Under the pieces are notes generated by a model, which worked only from the letters and a program-made list of their open reading frames with translations, was not told where the DNA came from and ran no database searches. A DNA stretch of 48,984 nucleotides from an uncultured Acidobacteriia bacterium (GTDB lineage Bacteria; Acidobacteriota; Terriglobia; Bryobacterales; Bryobacteraceae), in the NCBI GenBank assembly GCA_903892565.1, contig CAITIX010000280.1, positions 1 to 48,984 on the forward strand, given 5' to 3'. Of this stretch, positions 9,294 to 40,148 are shown in pieces. The position numbers were made by a program, and so were the translations under genes. Each line of letters opens with the position of its first letter. Positions within the stretch are counted from its first letter, which is position 1.

Positions 9294-10130
9294 CTAGCGC
9301 AGTAAATGTTCGAGCTGCACGCGCGCGTCGGTCTTGCTATCGCGATACTTCACGATCACTGGCGTATAGAGCGATATGTTCCACTCTTTGCCCTTACCTT
9401 GCGTAATCGCACGAGAGCCCGCGACGACAACCGCATCCTCGGGGATCACTAGCGGCTCGTCACCCTTCGCGGTCAGGATTTCGCCGCGCACCAGATCGTA
9501 CACGGGCGTCGAGCGCGTGAGGATCGTCCCGCTGCCAAGCACTGCGCGCTTTTTCACGACCGTACCTTCGTACACGCCGCAGTTACCGCCCACCATAACA
9601 TCGTCTTCGATGATCACAGGCATCGCACCCACCGGCTCCAGCACGCCGCCGATTTGTGCAGCGGCCGAGATGTGGCAATTCTTGCCAATCTGCGCGCAGC
9701 TTCCCACGAGCGCATGTGAATCCACCATCGTTCCATCGCCGACCCACGCTCCGACGTTGATATACATCGGCGGCATGCAGGTAACGCCTTTGCCGAGGTA
9801 ACAACCATCGCGGACGCTGGAGCCTCCCGGCACGATGCGCACTCCGCTATCGAGAGCGATGCGCTTCACCGGCCACGTCGCTTTGTCATAGAACGGCTGA
9901 CGCGCCGGATCAATCGACATATCCACCACCGTGCCCAGACGCATTCCGAGCAAGATACCTTTCTTCACCCAGGCATTCACGCGCCAGCCGGTGGCGGTGG
10001 AAGGATCGGGCTCCGCCGAACGGATATGCCCTTCATTCAGCGCCTGCTTGAATTGCGCGAACAACGCAAAATGTTCTTCCGTGTAGGCGGACGGTTTGTT
10101 GTCGAATACTGCTTCAATTTGTTTCTGCAT
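9294..10130 (-). CDS. dapD: Tetrahydrodipicolinate N-succinyltransferase
   Basis: Uses succinyl-CoA to succinylate tetrahydrodipicolinate in the diaminopimelate (peptidoglycan/lysine) pathway. The protein is 278 aa, the usual DapD length. After a helical N-terminus, the left-handed beta helix is visible as hexapeptide-like stretches in residues ~100-220. Diagnostic segments include [20 protein letters not shown] and VEP-type loops such as [16 protein letters not shown]. It begins 13 nt after dapA. The spacer shows no convincing Shine-Dalgarno sequence, but ATG is the natural start ([12 protein letters not shown]). It is last in the dapE-asd-dapB-dapA-dapD cluster. Confidence 0.93.
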
Positions 10131-10143
10131 TTGGAATATGGGT

Positions 10144-11058
10144 TCAGTCTGCGTGCGTGCTGCGGCTGGCCGCGACGGACACGGGAAGAAGCCCAGCGGA
10201 CTTCAGCACAGCTTCGATCTTCGCTTGATTCTGCGGTTGCGGAGGACACATCGGCAAACGATACGCCGGTTCGATCAGGCCCATCATGGCCAGCGCCGTT
10301 TTCACCGGAATCGGATTGGACTCCACAAAATTGATGTCCATCAAGGGCAGCCACTGTTTTTGCATGGCGCGGGCCCCGGCGAAATCGCCCTTCATTGCCA
10401 GATTCGTGAGCTTGGTCATCTCTGCGGGGATTTCGTTCGACGCCACCGAGATCAATCCACAGCCGCCGAGCGAAATGAGCGGAATCGTGAGCGCATCATC
10501 GCCCGACAGAATCGCGAAATTCGCGGGCATGTTATGACACACCGCCGCCATCTGCCCGATGTTGCCCGACGCTTCCTTAACGCCCACAATGTTGTCGATC
10601 TCCGACAAGCGCTTCAGTGTCGTTGTTTCCACGTTCACGCCGGTGCGTCCCTGCACGTTGTAAACAATCACAGGGACCTGCACGGCACCGGCGATTGCTT
10701 TGTAGTGCTGATACAGGCCTTCCTGCGTGGGCTTGTTGTAATACGGGGTCACCGAAAGGATCCCGTCGACGCCCATGCGCTGCAGTTCGTGCGCGAGCTC
10801 GATCACTTCCGACGTATTGTAGCCGCCGGCTCCGGCCACCACGGGGACTTTTCCTTTGGCAACTTCGAGCGTGATTTCGACCACGCGGAGATGTTCGGCG
10901 CGCGTCAGAGTCGGGCTTTCGCCCGTGGTACCGCAAGGGACCAGGAAATCGATACCGGCTTGCACCTGACGTTCGACTAAGCGCCGCATCGCGGCTTCGT
11001 CGAGCGAGAGATCCTTGCGAAACGGAGTAATGAGTGCGGTTCCACAACCCTTAAACAT
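10144..11058 (-). CDS. dapA: 4-hydroxy-tetrahydrodipicolinate synthase
   Basis: Condenses pyruvate with aspartate semialdehyde, the first committed step toward diaminopimelate and lysine. The 304-aa protein is a TIM-barrel class I aldolase. It shows the carboxylate-binding [11 protein letters not shown], the tyrosine motif [12 protein letters not shown], and the Schiff-base lysine in [16 protein letters not shown] is also typical. ATG at 11058 is preceded by AGAGGT in the end of dapB, 5 nt away, so the ribosome binding site overlaps the dapB stop codon. The last ~20 residues are a low-complexity tail. It may be feedback-regulated by lysine, but the sequence alone does not decide this. Confidence 0.94.
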
Positions 11059-30664: not shown

Positions 30665-31924
30665 GTGAGCTCCACGACCATCCCGACGGCCCTTCCCGTG
30701 GCCAAGGACCGCACTGCATATCCCGTCCTTGCCACCATCAGCGTCTGTCATTTCTTAAATGACTTGATCCAATCGCTGCTCCCCGCAATTTATCCGCTGC
30801 TCAAGGACAACTATCACCTGGACTTCGGTCAAATCGGTCTCATCACGTTCACCACGCAATTCGTGGCGTCTGTATTGCAGCCGGTCGTAGGATTTTTCAC
30901 CGACAAGCGCCCTCAGCCGTATTCTCTGCCCGTCGGCATGGGATTCTCGCTCAGCGGATTGTTGCTCCTCTCCACGGCCTCGAGCTTCCCCGCGATCCTC
31001 CTCGCCGTGGCGTTCGTCGGCGTCGGTTCTTCCGTGTTTCATCCCGAATCGTCGCGCGTGGCGCGCATGGCCGCAGGACCGAAACCGGGATTCGCGCAGG
31101 CGATCTTCCAAGTCGGCGGCAATGCGGGCACCGCCACCGGACCTCTGCTCGCGGCGTTCATCGTCATTAAACGCGGCCAGGGCAGCGTCGCCTGGTTTTC
31201 GATCGCCGCACTCGTTGCCATCATTCTGATGATTCGCATCAGCAACTGGGCCATCCAATATCGCCGCGCGAAAGCCAAGTCGCCGGTCGCGCACCACGAA
31301 CGCCACAGCCACGGACTGCCTCCGAAAAAGGTCGCGCTCGCCGTCGGCGTCCTCGTCATGCTGATGTTCTCGAAGTTCATCTACATGGCTAGTTTGACCA
31401 GCTATTTCACGTTCTTCCTGATCAGCAAATTCCATGTCACGACGGAGAAGGCGGAGCTCTTCCTATTCCTCTTCCTGGGATCGGTCGCCGCCGGAACACT
31501 GCTCGGCGGGCCCTTTGGCGATCGCGTCGGCCGCAAGTACGTGATTTGGTTTTCGATTCTCGGCGCGCTGCCGTTTACTCTCGCGCTGCCTTATGTGGGC
31601 CTGTTCTGGACTGGCATCTTCTGCTCTCTTGTCGGCCTGATTCTGGGCTCGGCATTCCCCGCGATCGTGGTCTTCGCGCAGGAACTGATGCCCGGCAAAG
31701 TCGGCATGATCTCGGGCCTGTTCTTTGGACTCGCCTTTGGCACCGGAGGCATCGCCGCCGCCCTGCTCGGCGTGCTGGCCGATCACACCAGCATCAACTT
31801 CGTCTACAAAGTGTGTTCGTTCTTGCCGCTGCTCGGCCTTCTCACGGCGTTCCTGCCGAACGTGGAAGAACATCGGCGGCGCGAACAAGCACTGACCGCG
31901 AACGTTTTACGCCAGACCAGCTAG
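30665..31924 (+). CDS. MFS exporter, fosmidomycin-resistance (Fsr) type
   Basis: A 419-aa inner-membrane MFS protein with 12 predicted helices. The N-terminus shows the Fsr subfamily signature SVCHFLNDLIQSLLPAIYPL. GLITFTTQFVASVLQPVVG follows in TM2. Between helices, FFTDKRP and GDRVGRK occupy the positions of the A-type loops, and HPESSRVARMAAG is also typical of Fsr proteins. Fsr exporters pump out fosmidomycin and related compounds; the real substrate here is unknown. GTG at 30665 lies 7 nt after TATCCT, suggesting a leaderless start. Its 3' end overlaps the convergent HU-TIR gene by 18 bp. Confidence 0.85.
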   Translation: MSSTTIPTALPVAKDRTAYPVLATISVCHFLNDLIQSLLPAIYPLLKDNYHLDFGQIGLITFTTQFVASVLQPVVGFFTDKRPQPYSLPVGMGFSLSGLLLLSTASSFPAILLAVAFVGVGSSVFHPESSRVARMAAGPKPGFAQAIFQVGGNAGTATGPLLAAFIVIKRGQGSVAWFSIAALVAIILMIRISNWAIQYRRAKAKSPVAHHERHSHGLPPKKVALAVGVLVMLMFSKFIYMASLTSYFTFFLISKFHVTTEKAELFLFLFLGSVAAGTLLGGPFGDRVGRKYVIWFSILGALPFTLALPYVGLFWTGIFCSLVGLILGSAFPAIVVFAQELMPGKVGMISGLFFGLAFGTGGIAAALLGVLADHTSINFVYKVCSFLPLLGLLTAFLPNVEEHRRREQALTANVLRQTS

Positions 31925-32506
31925 CGGTCTCCGCTTGGCGGCTTTCTTGATGTCCCGCGCGAGCCGCCGCACGCCCTTCTCCCAATCCGGAAACAAATCG
32001 ACATATTGCAGTTGTTCGGCGATGCGCCGCGGCACGACGCATTCTTCCAAGCGCACCGGCATCACGAATGGATCGTCCAGCGGCCTTCGGCGCGCGCATT
32101 CCAGTGCGTGACGAATCTCCTGCTGGAACATTCCGCGTTTCCCCACCGACCGAGGAGAAAAGCACGCCAGGAACACGTCCGCGACGTCGATGGCGTGCTC
32201 CAAGGCCCGTGGCCAGTCCTGCCCTGCCAGGAGCTTATCTTTATCGAGCCACGGGGAGCATCCATGCTTGCGCAGCGATTCGCACAAGCGCCGCGCATAC
32301 GGGAGATCCTCGACCGCGTAAGCCACAAACACCTGCGCGACTTCCTGTGGGGAAAACTGGTACGTCGTTTTCCCTTCGCTCACGTTTTTGCCGCCGGCAT
32401 TCGATGCGCGAAACGTGCCGAGCCCTTCGATCTCCACCGCCTGCCCGTTGCCCAATGCCTCACGCACGATTTCGGCGATACGCTCCCGCGTCTCCAGCCT
32501 CGTCAC
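31907..32506 (-). CDS. HU-like/TIR domain fusion protein
   Basis: A 199-aa protein with two recognisable parts. Residues ~8-60 look like the second half of an HU/IHF domain: a helix (RERIAEIVREALGNG), the HU signature VEIEGLGTFRASN, a short arm, and FSPQEVAQVF. Residues ~58-190 form a TIR domain: VFVAYAVEDLPYARRL (box 1), WLDKDKLLAGQDWPRAL, DVFLACFSPRSV, and QQEIRHAL with E130 at the position of the catalytic glutamate of NAD-cleaving TIR domains. A DNA-linked TIR effector or signalling enzyme is a reasonable inference. The first HU helix is absent. ATG at 32506 overlaps the stop of the upstream HU-like gene as ATGA, so the two are co-translated. Function is unproven. Confidence 0.75.
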   Translation of the reverse strand: MTRLETRERIAEIVREALGNGQAVEIEGLGTFRASNAGGKNVSEGKTTYQFSPQEVAQVFVAYAVEDLPYARRLCESLRKHGCSPWLDKDKLLAGQDWPRALEHAIDVADVFLACFSPRSVGKRGMFQQEIRHALECARRRPLDDPFVMPVRLEECVVPRRIAEQLQYVDLFPDWEKGVRRLARDIKKAAKRRPLAGLA

Positions 32507-35977: not shown

Positions 35978-36718
35978 ATGGTACAAACCTTGAGAATCCC
36001 TTCCTCCAGTACCGCGGCCCTTCTTGCATTTCTCATGTTGCCCGGTGCGGCGGTGTCTTCGGACGCCCCGGATGCCCCCGAAGATCGCCTGCCTATCGTT
36101 ATGAAATACGTGGACGCCACGCATACGCAGCAGGAAGCCATGAAGGGCGTCGAGATGCAAGTGGATATCGAGGCAAAGATCCCCAGCCTGGAAAAGCATG
36201 GCCGCCTGACGGCGCTGCGTAAAATTTCCCGCTTAGGCGTGATCACCTATAAGGCTCTGGGATTCTCCGGTGACAACACCGTGAAGCAGGAAGTCATTAC
36301 CCGCTACCTGGCCGCCGAAAGCGAAGGCCGCGAAAACGGCAGCATTGCCATTTCGCCGGCGAATTACAAGTTCAAAGTAAAGTCCGAGCAGGAGCAGAAG
36401 GGCCGCCGCATCGTGGTGCTGCAAATCACGCCGCGCAAAAAAGCGATTGGCCTGTTCAAGGGCGAATTGTGGGTGGATGCCGAATCGGGAATGCCGGTGC
36501 GCGAATCCGGCCAGTTTGTGAAATCCCCCTCGGTCTTTCTCAAGAAGATCGCGTTTGTTCGCGATTACGACATTCAAAACGGCGTTTCGATTCCCGCTCA
36601 CATCGAGAGCATGGTGGACACGCGCATTGCCGGACGCGCCGAACTTGAAATCAGTTTTAGCAACTTTATGAGGCAGGTAGGCGACGATGACGCCGCCGGG
36701 GCCCAGGCCAACCCCTAA
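35978..36718 (+). CDS. LolA/RseB-fold-like periplasmic protein
   Basis: A 246-aa exported protein. The N-terminus (MVQTLRIPSSSTAALLAFLM, then LPGAAVSSDA) is a probable signal peptide. The mature part is beta-rich, with features of the LolA/RseB half-barrel fold, which binds lipid in its cavity: repeated short strands and the motif GELWVDAESGMPVRESGQF (about 165-183). Similarity was judged by pattern only. It ends directly before hpnJ, whose ribosome binding site AAGGAG overlaps its stop codon, so the two are co-transcribed. Context suggests a hydrophobic carrier for hopanoid or another lipid (inference). Another outer-membrane-associated beta protein is possible. Confidence 0.6.
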   Translation: MVQTLRIPSSSTAALLAFLMLPGAAVSSDAPDAPEDRLPIVMKYVDATHTQQEAMKGVEMQVDIEAKIPSLEKHGRLTALRKISRLGVITYKALGFSGDNTVKQEVITRYLAAESEGRENGSIAISPANYKFKVKSEQEQKGRRIVVLQITPRKKAIGLFKGELWVDAESGMPVRESGQFVKSPSVFLKKIAFVRDYDIQNGVSIPAHIESMVDTRIAGRAELEISFSNFMRQVGDDDAAGAQANP

Positions 36719-36727
36719 GGAGACCGT

Positions 36728-38194
36728 TTGCCCAAGAAAACTTTATTCCTAAATCCCCCATCGTTTGAGGGATTCGACGGCGGTGCGAGCTCGCGCTGGC
36801 CTTCCACGCGCGAAATTGAGTCCTATTGGTATCCGGTGTGGCTGTGCTATCCGGCGGGCATGCTCGAAGGCAGCCGCGTTCTGGACGCGCCGCCGCACGG
36901 CATTTCCATTGAACAGACCGTCGAAATCGCCAAGGATTACGAACTCCTGGTGCTCTACACCTCGTCTCCGGGCTATAACGTCGACGTCAAGATCGCGGGC
37001 ATGCTCAAGGACGCGAATCCGAAACTGGAAGTCGCATTCGTCGGACCGCCCGTCACCATCGAGCCCGACAAGGCGCTCAACGCCACCAAGGCCATCGATT
37101 TTGTCGTGCGCCGCGAGTTTGATTACCAGATCGCCAACTACGCCAAGGGCGTGCCGCTCGACCAGATCCCGTCGGTGAGCTTCCGCAAAAACGGCGAAAA
37201 TATTCACAATCCGGAAGGCGGCCAGATCGAAAATCTGGACGAGCTCCCCTGGGTCAGCAAAGTCTACAAGCGCGACTTGGATTTCACGCGCTACAACGTC
37301 CCGTTCCTACTGAATCCCTACATTTCGATGTATACGTCGCGCGGATGCCCGGCGATGTGCACGTTCTGCCTGTGGCCGCAAACGCACTCGGGCCATCGCT
37401 GGAGACTGCGTTCCACCGACGACGTCGCCAACGAATGCAAGTATGTGCTCGAAAACTTCCCCGGCCTGCGGGAAATCTTCTTCGACGACGACACGTTTAA
37501 CTACAAGAAGGAACGCACGCTCGAGCTGTGCGCCAAGCTGAAAAAACTGAACTTCACGTGGTCCTGCACGTCGCGCGTCACCACCGATTACGAAACGCTC
37601 AAGGCGATGAAAGACGCCGGAGCGCGCCTGCTCATCGTTGGCTACGAATCGGGCGATCCGCAAATCTTGAAGAACATCAAGAAGGGCGCTACGGTCGAAA
37701 TGGCCAAGCGCTTTACGGAAAATTGCCACAAACTCGGCCTCATCATTCACGGCGACTTCATCGTCGGCCTGCCGGGTGAAACGCGCCAGACCATTCGCAA
37801 TACGATCGACTACGCCAAGCGCCTCGATGTCGAAACCATCCAGGTTTCCATTGCACACGCTTATCCCGGAACCGAATTCTACGATTACGCCAAGAAGAAC
37901 GCCTTGGTCAACATCGAGATGTCCGACGATCAAGGCCACCAGCTCCCCAACGTCATTTATCCCGGCATCCTGGATGAGGGCGAAATGGTGGAGTGGGTGG
38001 AACGTTTCTACGGCGAGTATTATTTCCGTCCCAAAGCCGCGTGGCGCATTGTTCGCAAAGCGATCTTCGACGGCAAGGAACGCAAACGCCTGACGAAGGA
38101 AGCCAAAGAGTATCTGGCCTTGCGCGCGAAACGTAAGATTTACGTCGCGGACAAGAAGGCGGAAGCGCTCACACAGGCCCGGGAGCGAGCCTAA
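36728..38194 (+). CDS. hpnJ: Hopanoid-associated B12-binding radical SAM protein HpnJ
   Basis: A 488-aa enzyme with a cobalamin-binding-like N-terminal domain (~1-150) and a radical SAM barrel with C207, C211 and C214 (RGCPAMCTFC). The N-terminal signature LFLNPPSFEGFDGGASSRW and REIESYWYPVWLCYPAGML match HpnJ. This family is tied to conversion of the glucosamine head group of bacteriohopanetetrol to the cyclitol ether. TTG at 36728 has AAGGAG at 36717-36722. It is followed after 12 nt by two SMR-like genes and hpnI, so it acts with HpnI on the same lipid. hpnK, the deacetylase expected between HpnI and HpnJ in the pathway, is not in this window. Confidence 0.9.
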   Translation: MPKKTLFLNPPSFEGFDGGASSRWPSTREIESYWYPVWLCYPAGMLEGSRVLDAPPHGISIEQTVEIAKDYELLVLYTSSPGYNVDVKIAGMLKDANPKLEVAFVGPPVTIEPDKALNATKAIDFVVRREFDYQIANYAKGVPLDQIPSVSFRKNGENIHNPEGGQIENLDELPWVSKVYKRDLDFTRYNVPFLLNPYISMYTSRGCPAMCTFCLWPQTHSGHRWRLRSTDDVANECKYVLENFPGLREIFFDDDTFNYKKERTLELCAKLKKLNFTWSCTSRVTTDYETLKAMKDAGARLLIVGYESGDPQILKNIKKGATVEMAKRFTENCHKLGLIIHGDFIVGLPGETRQTIRNTIDYAKRLDVETIQVSIAHAYPGTEFYDYAKKNALVNIEMSDDQGHQLPNVIYPGILDEGEMVEWVERFYGEYYFRPKAAWRIVRKAIFDGKERKRLTKEAKEYLALRAKRKIYVADKKAEALTQARERA

Positions 38195-38206: not shown

Positions 38207-38662
38207 ATGGCGCCGGGTTCCAGCTCCACGACGCGCTGGAAGTGGAAGACTCCGCTTTTCGCGTTCGTCGTTATCTTTACGAACGCCTTTGGGAATTTTT
38301 TTATCGCCCGTGGGATGCGGGAAATTCCCGCCGTGGGCAACGCGACCGATCTCATCGTCGCCATCTTCACCCCGTGGGTGGGGCTGGGCATTCTCCTGCT
38401 GATCACGTGGCTCCTGAGCCGCATGATGTTTCTCAGCTTCGCCGATCTTAGCTACATGCTGCCTCTGACCTCGCTTGGCTATGTGCTCAGCGTCGTATTG
38501 GGCCGCTTCTTCCTCAACGAACAAATCACGCCGCAGCGTTGGGGCGGAACGGTGATGATTATGATCGGGACACTTCTTGTGGGCGGCGGAAGTCCCGACA
38601 CCACGCATGCGCTGGAGAGCACGAGCAAGCCCTCTGCCGCTGGAGGCGGAAGTCATCAATGA
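38207..38662 (+). CDS. SMR/EamA-like half transporter, first of a pair
   Basis: A 151-aa membrane protein with four predicted helices (about residues 14-34, 48-66, 77-97 and 110-128). The block ADLSYMLPLTSLGYVLSVVL followed by FFLNEQITPQRWGGTVMIM is the EamA/SMR C-terminal half. Its length and its coupled partner recall ArnE/ArnF, a two-subunit flippase of a lipid-linked aminosugar. The C-terminal 25 residues are Ser/Gly-rich. It starts 12 nt after hpnJ, and its stop overlaps the next start (ATGA). Substrate is inferred from context only. Confidence 0.75.
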   Translation: MAPGSSSTTRWKWKTPLFAFVVIFTNAFGNFFIARGMREIPAVGNATDLIVAIFTPWVGLGILLLITWLLSRMMFLSFADLSYMLPLTSLGYVLSVVLGRFFLNEQITPQRWGGTVMIMIGTLLVGGGSPDTTHALESTSKPSAAGGGSHQ

Positions 38663-39027
38663 CTCGGGCCTGGCTCCTGCTTGCCGTCGTCGTCGGCTCC
38701 ACCGTCTTGAGCGATCTGCTCACCAGCCTGGAGATGAAGCGCCACGGCGAGATCCGCGATTTCGGCCCCTCTGGCATCGGCCGCGCCCTGAGCGCCATGG
38801 CGCGCAAGAAATTCTTGATCCTGGCAATCGTGTTTATGGCGTTTTCGTTTTTCGCCTTCATCACGCTGGTTCAATCGGCGGACCTGAGCTTCGCCGTTCC
38901 GGCCTCGGCCTTGAGCATCGTGTTTGAAACGATCCTCGCGCGCCTGGTCCTGAAAGAACGCGTCGATGCGCGGCGCTGGTGGGGCGTCTGCTTCGTCGCC
39001 TTCGGCGTGGGCCTCCTTTCCCAGTGA
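38659..39027 (+). CDS. SMR/EamA-like half transporter, second of a pair
   Basis: A 122-aa four-helix membrane protein with the same plan as its upstream neighbour. SADLSFAVPASALSIVFETI and LARLVLKERVDARRWWGVCF parallel the ADLSYMLPLTSLGYVLSVVL and NEQITPQRWGG blocks there. ATG at 38659 overlaps the preceding stop as ATGA. An upstream extension (from 38539) lies in the other gene and lacks membrane character, so it was rejected. Its stop overlaps the hpnI start as GTGA. Together the pair could form a heterodimeric lipid or drug transporter. Confidence 0.75.
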   Translation: MTRAWLLLAVVVGSTVLSDLLTSLEMKRHGEIRDFGPSGIGRALSAMARKKFLILAIVFMAFSFFAFITLVQSADLSFAVPASALSIVFETILARLVLKERVDARRWWGVCFVAFGVGLLSQ

Positions 39028-40148
39028 ACCTCAGCGCACTAGCAGTGATCATCTTCGGGATCGCTGCGGCCTATCAGCTCCTCGCGATCTTTGCGTGCCT
39101 ATTCCGCAAGCGCAAGACTGCTCCCGCAGGCGTTCGCGGACCGGTTTCCATCCTGAAGCCCGTCCATGGATCCGATCCTGCACTGCGCGCGGCCATCCTG
39201 TCTCACTCGAAATTCCCTCACTCGAAATTCCGCGGAGAGTACGAACTGCTGTGCGGCGTGCATGATCCAAACGACGCCGCGATTCCTCTGCTCGAGGAAC
39301 TATCCCGCGAGTTTCCAAGCCTGCGCATCGTCGAATCTCGCACGAAGACGGCCAACGCAAAGGTCGGCGTGCTGCAAGATCTCGCCGCTGCCGCACGCTT
39401 CCCCATCCTCGTCGTCAACGACGCCGATATTCGCGTCGATCCCGATTATCTAGATCGTGTGGTCGCGCCGCTTGCCGATCCCAAAGTCGGTCTCGTCACG
39501 TGTCTGTATCGCCCCAACGGAACAAGCTTCGCTTCGCGCTTCGAGGGACTCGGCGTCTCCACCGATTTCGCCCCTTCTGCGCTCGTCGCACGGCTCGTTG
39601 GCGTCGACGAATTCGCCATGGGCTCCACGCTGGCGTTTCGAAAAACGGACCTCGAAAAAATCGGCGGCTTTGCGGCCATCGCCGATTATCTGGCCGACGA
39701 CTATCAACTCGGCCACCGCATCCATCAACTCGGCTTGAAGTGCGTTCTGTCGGACGTCATCGTCGAAACCAGCCTTGGCGGAGGATGGCTCGATGTGTGG
39801 CGTCATCAAGTGCGCTGGGCGCGCACGATTCGCGTTTCGAAACCCGCCGGCTATGTCGGCTTGCCCGTCACGAACGCAATGTTGTGGATCGTCATCCTAT
39901 GGCTCTTGGGCCGCTTCCAAATGGCGGGCATTGTCTTGGCGCTGCGCCTGTGGATGGCCATCCTCGCGGGATGGTTCGCACTCCGCAGCCGCGACGTCCT
40001 CAAATTCTGGTGGCTGGTTCCCGCGCGCGATCTCTTCGCCTTCGCCGTATGGATCGCCGGACTATTCGGCAACACCGTGATTTGGCGCGACCGCGAACTA
40101 CGGCTCGACGCCGAAGGGCGGATTCAAAGCAAGCCACACTCGTCCTAA
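39024..40148 (+). CDS. hpnI: Hopanoid glycosyltransferase HpnI (GT21, ceramide glucosyltransferase-like)
   Basis: A 374-aa membrane GT. One N-terminal helix (about 3-25) is followed by a GT21 catalytic domain with PVSILKPVHGSDPAL, VNDADIRVDPDYL, GVDEFAMGSTLAFRK, IADYLADDYQLG and VRWARTIRVSKPAGY. Several C-terminal helices follow. HpnI adds an N-acetylglucosamine group to bacteriohopanetetrol, the step before deacetylation by HpnK. GTG at 39024 overlaps the stop of the preceding gene (GTGA). An upstream frame to 38979 has no signal. An exact 15-bp duplication within the gene (39202-39231) adds five residues (HSKFP repeated). Confidence 0.87.
   Translation: MNLSALAVIIFGIAAAYQLLAIFACLFRKRKTAPAGVRGPVSILKPVHGSDPALRAAILSHSKFPHSKFRGEYELLCGVHDPNDAAIPLLEELSREFPSLRIVESRTKTANAKVGVLQDLAAAARFPILVVNDADIRVDPDYLDRVVAPLADPKVGLVTCLYRPNGTSFASRFEGLGVSTDFAPSALVARLVGVDEFAMGSTLAFRKTDLEKIGGFAAIADYLADDYQLGHRIHQLGLKCVLSDVIVETSLGGGWLDVWRHQVRWARTIRVSKPAGYVGLPVTNAMLWIVILWLLGRFQMAGIVLALRLWMAILAGWFALRSRDVLKFWWLVPARDLFAFAVWIAGLFGNTVIWRDRELRLDAEGRIQSKPHSS
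39202..39231. repeat. Exact 15-bp tandem duplication inside hpnI
   Basis: CTCACTCGAAATTCC occurs twice head to tail at 39202-39216 and 39217-39231. It duplicates the residues HSKFP in frame. Confidence 0.8.

Follow-up and report, generated by a model that had tools for sequence, protein, structure and literature searches.

Two small genes that we term E1 and E2, situated between hpnJ and hpnI in an uncultured Acidobacteriia bacterium, are, we conclude with high confidence, a conserved component of the HpnI/HpnJ pathway of hopanoid head-group modification in Acidobacteriota and part of Cyanobacteria, and they probably encode a heterodimeric flippase, of the lipid-transporting type within the small multidrug resistance (SMR) family, for the hopanoids that HpnI and HpnJ modify. 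The pair lies on a 48,984-nt stretch (contig CAITIX010000280.1 of assembly GCA_903892565.1, analyzed whole and hereafter called the window), where E1 (38207..38662, + strand) and E2 (38659..39027, + strand) encode EamA/SMR half transporters of 151 and 122 aa, respectively, each with four transmembrane (TM) helices. Synthesis of the head groups of hopanoids, the sterol-like lipids of bacteria, is expected on the cytoplasmic side, but hopanoids are found in the outer membrane, with HpnN as the described exporter; the literature passages available to us assign no protein to the flipping of hopanoids across the inner membrane, and in the open-licence literature, mostly screened by title listing, we found no earlier description of this pair as a hopanoid transporter. 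A conserved two-gene (or fused) candidate makes the inner-membrane flip step testable.

Linkage of E1 and E2 to hpnJ in Acidobacteriota

In the window, hpnJ (36728..38194, +, with a TTG start as listed) encodes the B12-binding radical SAM protein of the bacteriohopanetetrol (BHT) cyclitol ether step, and hpnI (39024..40148, +) the glycosyltransferase of BHT glucosamine biosynthesis. Both products exceed the cut-offs of their models (759.8 bits against 577.6 for TIGR03471 and 318.1 bits against 310 for TIGR03472), and the closest relatives of the HpnJ are Acidobacteriota records. The first-pass annotation, made from the sequence alone, had placed proteins of 151 and 122 aa between these genes, in agreement with the open reading frames, and had each overlapping its neighbors by 4 nt. 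Such overlaps are present between E1 and E2 (ATGA, 38659..38662, +, common to the E1 stop and the E2 start) and between E2 and hpnI (GTGA, 39024..39027, +, common to the E2 stop and the hpnI start, a GTG at 39024), but hpnJ and E1 are separated by a 12-nt gap. Among related loci, an in-frame start permits the 4-nt E1/E2 overlap in 93 of 109 pairs and a 1-nt overlap in 5, with neither in the remaining 11 (this count pools two survey sets, which possibly have genomes in common); the recurrence of the overlap is beyond chance.

The survey of hpnI/hpnJ neighborhoods in other genomes that the first-pass annotation had proposed showed the pair 3' of hpnJ, on the same strand, in 25 of 27 informative loci of a first set (window included), linkage being defined as a distance within 6 kb, stop to stop. 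The two exceptions are a locus with the pair about 8 kb off (L051) and one with none (L034); two further loci (L037 and L043) end too soon to be informative, and G030 (L062), at 346.9 bits, is not an HpnJ locus and was dropped from the counts. A second set, comprising the best 80 of 557 HpnJ relatives and thus skewed to acidobacterial HpnJ, may have genomes in common with the first; here, the pair is 3' of hpnJ in 69 of 74 informative loci, with six further loci ending too soon, and in the five loci where it is not beside hpnJ (L083, L116, L122, L138 and L141), it is found elsewhere in the same genome. Weak E1 matches of 64.5 bits in G201, cut near a contig end, and 43.3 bits in G202 were not counted as strong. 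The next gene after E2 is hpnI in 7 of the 25 and 44 of the 69 linked loci, and in the first set, where hpnI does not follow E2, hpnI matches occur elsewhere in the genome.

The gene order varies around this theme. In five genomes (G051, G063, G096, G123 and G165), the order is hpnJ-hpnK-E1-E2; four of these also have hpnI farther 3', which in G063 comes after an intervening dipeptidase gene. G195 carries the pair on a different contig, next to frames that resemble hpnD/hpnE by eye. The pair also occurs in cultured Acidobacteriaceae, for example Silvibacterium bohemicum S15 (L132). For strain KBS 83, two extra genes between hpnJ and other clusters have been mentioned (excerpt of PMC5462960); these may be E1 and E2, which follow hpnJ at that locus (L133), or two other frames there that precede an hpnE-like gene. 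The main text of that paper uses neither the word transporter nor the word flippase.

Co-occurrence was assessed in a sample of 199 Acidobacteriota genomes, of which 28 encode HpnJ over the cut-off and one more (G103) has a split hpnJ gene, giving 29. A profile built from 20 E1 sequences scored at least 118 bits, a line set after the scores were known (the best score of the next genome is 94.4), in 27 of these 29 genomes versus 2 of the 170 others (G169 and G074; Fisher p 9e-29, uncorrected for kinship). A squalene-hopene cyclase (SHC) match was detected in 51 of the 199 genomes, namely, all 29 with HpnJ and 22 others; the pair occurs in 27 of the former and none of the latter, suggesting that it follows head-group modification rather than hopanoids as such.

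Three genomes with SHC but no HpnJ (G037, G066 and G196) have a single half, scoring 86–94 bits, beside hpnK. A single EamA half, not a pair, lies beside hpnI-hpnK at three loci from genomes without HpnJ (L183:5692-6204, L186:8003-8386 and L188:5824-6207), followed by a gene for a DegT-type aminotransferase in L183 and a similar frame in L188. The single half is possibly a homodimeric version for BHT glucosamine.

Fused halves in Cyanobacteria and HpnL in Pseudomonadota

One of the loci, L138, comes from a Scytonema record, and Cyanobacteria were sampled as the phylum of its genome (244 genomes, 26 with HpnJ over the cut-off). An E1 match of at least 94 bits, a line placed, once the scores were known, in the gap from 94.2 down to 87.1 bits, occurs in 13 of the 26 HpnJ genomes versus 4 of the 218 others (Fisher p 1.6e-11). 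The strong enrichment in HpnJ genomes of two phyla, together with the linkage, shows that the pair is not unlinked to hpnI/hpnJ elsewhere; the opposite outcome had been named in the first-pass annotation as refuting its proposal.

In 15 of these 17 strong-match genomes, eleven with HpnJ and four without, the halves are fused in one frame, and in the other two (G206 and G382), they are separate genes. The fusions are 269–309 aa long in fourteen cases and 280 aa in L264, contain two EamA stretches and, read by eye from the sequence, have about four helices per half with a short hydrophobic stretch between. Six have hpn neighbors: L277 has the order hpnK-fusion-hpnI, with a 4-nt hpnK/fusion overlap and both flanking products over their cut-offs (266.4 bits for hpnK and 344.1 bits for hpnI); L283, L284 and L285 have hpnK-fusion; L287, from a genome without HpnJ, has fusion-hpnI (hpnI 320 bits, over the cut-off); and in L264, the fusion is 0.7 kb from hpnJ, in divergent orientation. 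For the other nine, no hpn neighbor was recognized in the stretch examined. Full-length EamA genes near hpnJ in Scytonema (L138:6845-7930) and near hpnI in L269 (556-1614) look like ordinary one-chain EamA transporters and were not used.

Pseudomonadota were covered via plasmids. A tblastn search gave HpnJ-like matches on 20 plasmid records, of which seven regions were examined; matches on a Lawsonia plasmid (L213, 33.6% identity) are not HpnJ and were left out, leaving six loci, five from Burkholderiaceae and one from Methylobacterium. All six have an HpnL-like or lysylphosphatidylglycerol-synthase-domain gene inside the hpnI/J/K cluster, and E1 and E2 are in none of the six stretches. The grouping of hpnL with hpnI, hpnJ and hpnK in an Acidithiobacillaceae cluster (excerpt of PMC8886135) is in line with this arrangement, and the function of hpnL is described as not established (excerpt of PMC12583986). 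Both acidobacterial HpnJ genomes that lack the pair have an HpnL-like match, encoded by a gene following hpnK in G029 and by a fragment at a contig end in G192, whereas in the 199-genome sample such a match is absent, at an E-value of 1e-10, from all 27 genomes with both HpnJ and the pair. Among the 244 Cyanobacteria, HpnL-like genes occur in four genomes, none with HpnJ.

In a tree of HpnJ, one clade (support 92) comprises pair-bearing Acidobacteriota and Scytonema/Rhizonema, and another (support 99) unites Pseudomonadota, the HpnL-bearing G029 and G192, and the other sampled Cyanobacteria, which have the fusion, in one case the pair, or neither. The presence of the pair or the fusion with both HpnJ clades suggests that its role is in the pathway and that it is not simply carried along with one HpnJ lineage, though the independent events are few. 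In a tree of the halves, the C-terminal halves of the fusions join E2 (a 27-row group, support 90), the N-terminal halves fall outside the E2 group, near cyanobacterial E1, and EmrE, Gdx, MdtI and MdtJ are separated from the halves (support 98); because of long branches, the deeper placement is uncertain.

At three cyanobacterial HpnJ loci that lack a strong pair (L268, L269 and L275), an ABC-transporter-like gene adjoins hpnI, Pfam-confirmed in L268 (11886-13514; cyclic-peptide export class, 491 bits, over the cut-off) and L275 (3506-5224). A Pfam-confirmed homolog is likewise beside hpnI in L225 (5601-7220), where the pair is present. The ABC transporter is a possible third solution.

Family, fold and TM1 residues of E1 and E2

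Both proteins have the C-terminal EamA/SMR block noticed in the first-pass annotation: Pfam EamA (PF00892, cut-off 28.2) matches E1 with 29.1 bits at residues 60-125 and E2 with 35.3 bits at residues 50-121. Profiles of E1 and E2 align with an hhalign probability of 99.9 over 121 columns, so the two are homologous. The Pfam model of SMR exporters (PF00893, cut-off 23.7) gave 19.2 bits with E2 and no listed match with E1, and the HpnL models (TIGR03476 and PF03706) matched neither. The NCBIfam equivalogs for ArnE (cut-off 92 bits) and ArnF (cut-off 99 bits) were also not reached: the ArnE model gave 19.0 bits with E1 and 28.4 bits with E2 (E-value 1.4e-6), and the ArnF model gave 15.5 bits with E1, with E2 unlisted. 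When compared by hhalign with six Escherichia coli SMR proteins, ArnE was the best match for both halves (92.5 for E1 and 94.3 for E2), and EmrE, Gdx, MdtI and MdtJ gave weaker profile matches.

AlphaFold2 models (pLDDT 83.1 for E1 and 89.8 for E2) predict four long helices in each protein plus short ones (E1: 14-39, 56-78, 81-102 and 109-126; E2: 2-29, 51-73, 76-96, broken at 84, and 104-121). In length and helix number, both agree with paired SMR/DMT halves (about 100–150 aa, four TM helices). In VIA-align comparisons, E1 matched Gdx-Clo with Z 11.5 (3.0 A over 103 residues) and EmrE with Z 11.3, and E2 matched Gdx-Clo with Z 12.7 (2.4 A over 101 residues), although in helical bundles Z below about 13 may reflect a common arrangement; the top rows are SMR or other drug/metabolite transporter (DMT) chains, and unrelated rows drop to Z of about 7–8. 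Foldseek E-values are weak (0.23 for E1 and 0.019 for E2). As judged from sequence profiles and predicted fold together, E1 and E2 appear to sit nearer the lipid SMR protein ArnE than the drug and guanidinium exporters.

At the column of the central EmrE Glu, in an alignment with the E. coli SMR proteins, E1 has Asn26 and E2 has Thr15, and a second polar site in TM1 is occupied by Asn30 in E1 and the acidic Asp19 in E2. Across related pairs, the central column of E1 is Asn in 44 of 51 pairs with hpnI near and Ala in 32 of 44 without, that of E2 is mostly Thr, Ser or Ala, and Glu is absent from the residues listed at this column in either alignment. One helix turn further, E1 has Asn or Asp in 126 and E2 has Asp or Glu in 127 of 129 alignment rows (some seed rows are counted twice). 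At the EmrE Thr18 column, ArnE and ArnF both have Gln, whereas E1 has Asn/Asp and E2 has Asp/Glu; the conservation of these other residues may point to a polar pocket adapted to hopanoid head groups. Lipid SMR proteins often carry Asn in place of the central Glu, suggesting no proton coupling, and more than 95% of adjacent SMR pairs show opposite charge bias (excerpts of PMC9574504). Here, the Lys/Arg bias of E2 is negative in all 109 pairs, a pattern expected for loops 1 and 3 inside and an N-out/C-out orientation, and the biases of E1 and E2 are of opposite sign in 81 of the 109. ArnE as best match and the replaced central Glu point to lipid SMR proteins, and the charge bias, with its weaker E1 component, may do so too.

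Proposed flipping of modified hopanoids and comparison with known systems

In the mechanism that we propose, HpnI and HpnJ, with HpnK where present, would modify BHT on the cytoplasmic face, and E1 and E2 would associate as an antiparallel, lipid-SMR-type heterodimer, for which the natural fusions provide indirect support. The dimer would move the modified BHT to the periplasmic leaflet of the inner membrane, from where other carriers (HpnN in known systems) would take it to the outer membrane. Flipping might run downhill from cytoplasmic synthesis, pulled by outer-membrane export, with no proton coupling, and Asn/Asp30 of E1 and Asp/Glu19 of E2 would line the head-group pocket.

The first-pass annotation had raised the possibility of a dedicated flippase for aminosugar-modified hopanoids. 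Co-occurrence, linkage and natural fusion support a dedicated role in the head-group-modified hopanoid pathway, with flipping as its putative form, but the term aminosugar is uncertain: the top HpnK-like match of the window organism, in two pieces of one frame that score 94.4 and 74.6 bits, falls well short of the 232.6-bit cut-off. SD1 and SD3 Acidobacteria are likewise described as having hpnI and hpnJ without hpnK, and Chloracidobacterium thermophilum B, which makes BHT cyclitol ether, as the only acidobacterium with hpnI, hpnK and hpnJ (excerpt of PMC5462960). The head group of the window organism is therefore uncertain: it might retain an N-acetyl group, lose it through another enzyme, or be of a different kind. 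The idea that the pair replaces HpnK was dropped, given that the five genomes with hpnK between hpnJ and E1 encode HpnK over the cut-off and that in L277, hpnK adjoins the fusion. The window organism has two SHC genes and two HpnI-class glycosyltransferases over the cut-off (C280 39030-40127 and C152 16303-17409); two HpnI matches at an E-value of 1e-40 occur in 18 of 21 HpnJ-bearing genomes of its class.

Several observations weigh against assigning the pair to flipping of HpnI/HpnJ products. Kinship inflates every co-occurrence count, and the few changes of transporter label on the HpnJ tree mean that the counts are not independent. G169 and G074 carry the pair with no HpnJ, HpnI or SHC match at the limits used. 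Conversely, neither a strong pair nor HpnL is present in the other 13 of the 26 HpnJ genomes of Cyanobacteria, eight of which show one match of 51–65 bits and five no match, so either the pair is dispensable or its task falls to something else. Three of 25 second-set genomes hold the pair together with an HpnL-like gene below the cut-off, which weakens strict mutual exclusion of the two. E. coli ArnF gave no match in profile comparison (6.7 for E1 and 0.4 for E2). Finally, the charge bias of E1 is weak (81 positive, 18 zero and 10 negative among the 109 pairs) and is positive in only 22 of 44 pairs without HpnI near. As to the loci involved, the neighborhoods of the G074 and G169 pairs (L204:435-1252 and L203 ~9656-10443, respectively) give no explanation, and the HpnL-like match of KBS 83 (L233) belongs to a frame of 793 aa whose surroundings contain no recognized hpn biosynthesis gene.

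The alternative that survives best, although we consider it unlikely, is that the pair flips another lipid, either unmodified BHT/ribosylhopane or an undecaprenyl-phosphate-linked sugar, for an enzyme on the periplasmic side. ArnE and ArnF are the nearest curated relatives, and G179 has a second, distant EamA pair in what appears by eye to be a polysaccharide gene cluster (L206:9803-10539). However, linkage is to hpnJ, hpnI and hpnK and not to hopanoids generally, as the absence of the pair from SHC genomes without HpnJ indicates, and HpnI is a GT21/GT2-like enzyme, for which cytoplasmic UDP-GlcNAc is the expected donor. Somewhat less probable still is a role as an accessory membrane subunit, with the pair anchoring or regulating HpnI/HpnJ and transporting nothing. 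The E2/hpnI overlap, seen in the window and possible in 28 of the 51 loci where hpnI follows E2, would suit such a subunit, but many family f2 genomes keep the pair by hpnJ with hpnI elsewhere, some genomes have the pair away from hpnJ, the conserved polar TM1 residues and the natural fusion of the halves fit a transporter, and the examined Pseudomonadota clusters have, in place of the pair, an unrelated flippase-like protein. That the pair is an ordinary SMR exporter (of drugs, guanidinium or polyamines) located in the operon by chance is very improbable: such an exporter would share the fold class, with Gdx-Clo and EmrE among the best structural rows, but PF00893 is not reached, the central Glu is missing, ArnE is the stronger profile match and the best curated relative of E2, the half tree sets EmrE, Gdx, MdtI and MdtJ apart, and the pair co-occurs with HpnJ; orthology to such exporters, the other outcome adverse to the first-pass proposal, thus finds no support.

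If E1 and E2 are indeed a flippase for modified hopanoids, lipid SMR proteins extend from polyprenyl carriers to a triterpenoid lipid. More tentatively, flipping of sugar- or cyclitol-modified hopanoids might be a dedicated step performed by non-orthologous machines: an SMR heterodimer in Acidobacteriota, some Cyanobacteria and perhaps Leptospirillum, a single-chain fusion in other Cyanobacteria, and HpnL in Pseudomonadota, for which the finding suggests a role. Leptospirillum may be a third phylum with such a system, as its hopanoid-like cluster includes an EamA-like protein, a glycosyltransferase and a B12-binding/radical SAM enzyme (excerpt of PMC12654047) and hpnIJ have been assigned to it (excerpt of PMC7231039). 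Were this scheme true, the fusions would be a living record of paired SMR halves becoming a one-chain, two-repeat transporter via a short hydrophobic linker stretch.

Two further genes of the window deserve mention. About 10 nt 5' of hpnJ is a gene for a LolA-like putative periplasmic protein (35978..36718, +; PF17131, 24.1 bits, below the cut-off of 30), a relative of which (L221:3919-4686) passes this model with 33.4 bits. Homologs are immediately 5' of hpnJ in 23 of 102 loci, all with HpnJ scoring at least 809 bits against the window HpnJ; the protein is possibly an operon member in part of the group, and this secreted protein could be a periplasmic hopanoid carrier. On the opposite strand, 31907-32506 (-) encodes a 199-aa protein with a C-terminal TIR domain (PF13676, 92.3 bits), for which the top PADLOC match is the TIR part of a TIR-Argonaute-type model (62 bits) and the first 50 residues, without a Pfam match, resemble what we take to be an HU/IHF-type DNA-binding segment.

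Among known systems, the undecaprenyl-phosphate-aminoarabinose flippase ArnE/ArnF, a lipid SMR to which the first-pass annotation had likened the pair, is the closest in architecture: four-helix halves without the central Glu are encoded, within a lipid head-group operon, by two neighboring genes that overlap slightly (by 1 nt in E. coli and by 4 nt for E1/E2), and the fusions L277 and L287 match the ArnE model with the N-terminal half and the ArnF model with the C-terminal half, all below the cut-offs. The analogy stops short of equivalence, as the equivalog cut-offs are far from reached, E. coli ArnF does not align, the Thr18 columns differ, fused forms of E1/E2 exist, and the context is polyprenyl phosphate in the arn operon but hopanoid, with hpnJ and hpnI as neighbors, for E1/E2. 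Of the SMR exporters EmrE, Gdx/SugE and MdtI/MdtJ, EmrE and Gdx-Clo represent the fold that is predicted for E1 and E2, but the central Glu and conserved Trp of the exporters are absent from the pair. HpnL (PF03706, LPG_synthase_TM) is likewise found in hpnI/hpnJ/hpnK clusters, in the six Pseudomonadota loci and G029, where the pair is missing, but belongs to an unrelated, larger family. Full-length EamA/DMT transporters have the EamA domain in common with E1 and E2, which in the window are separate halves.
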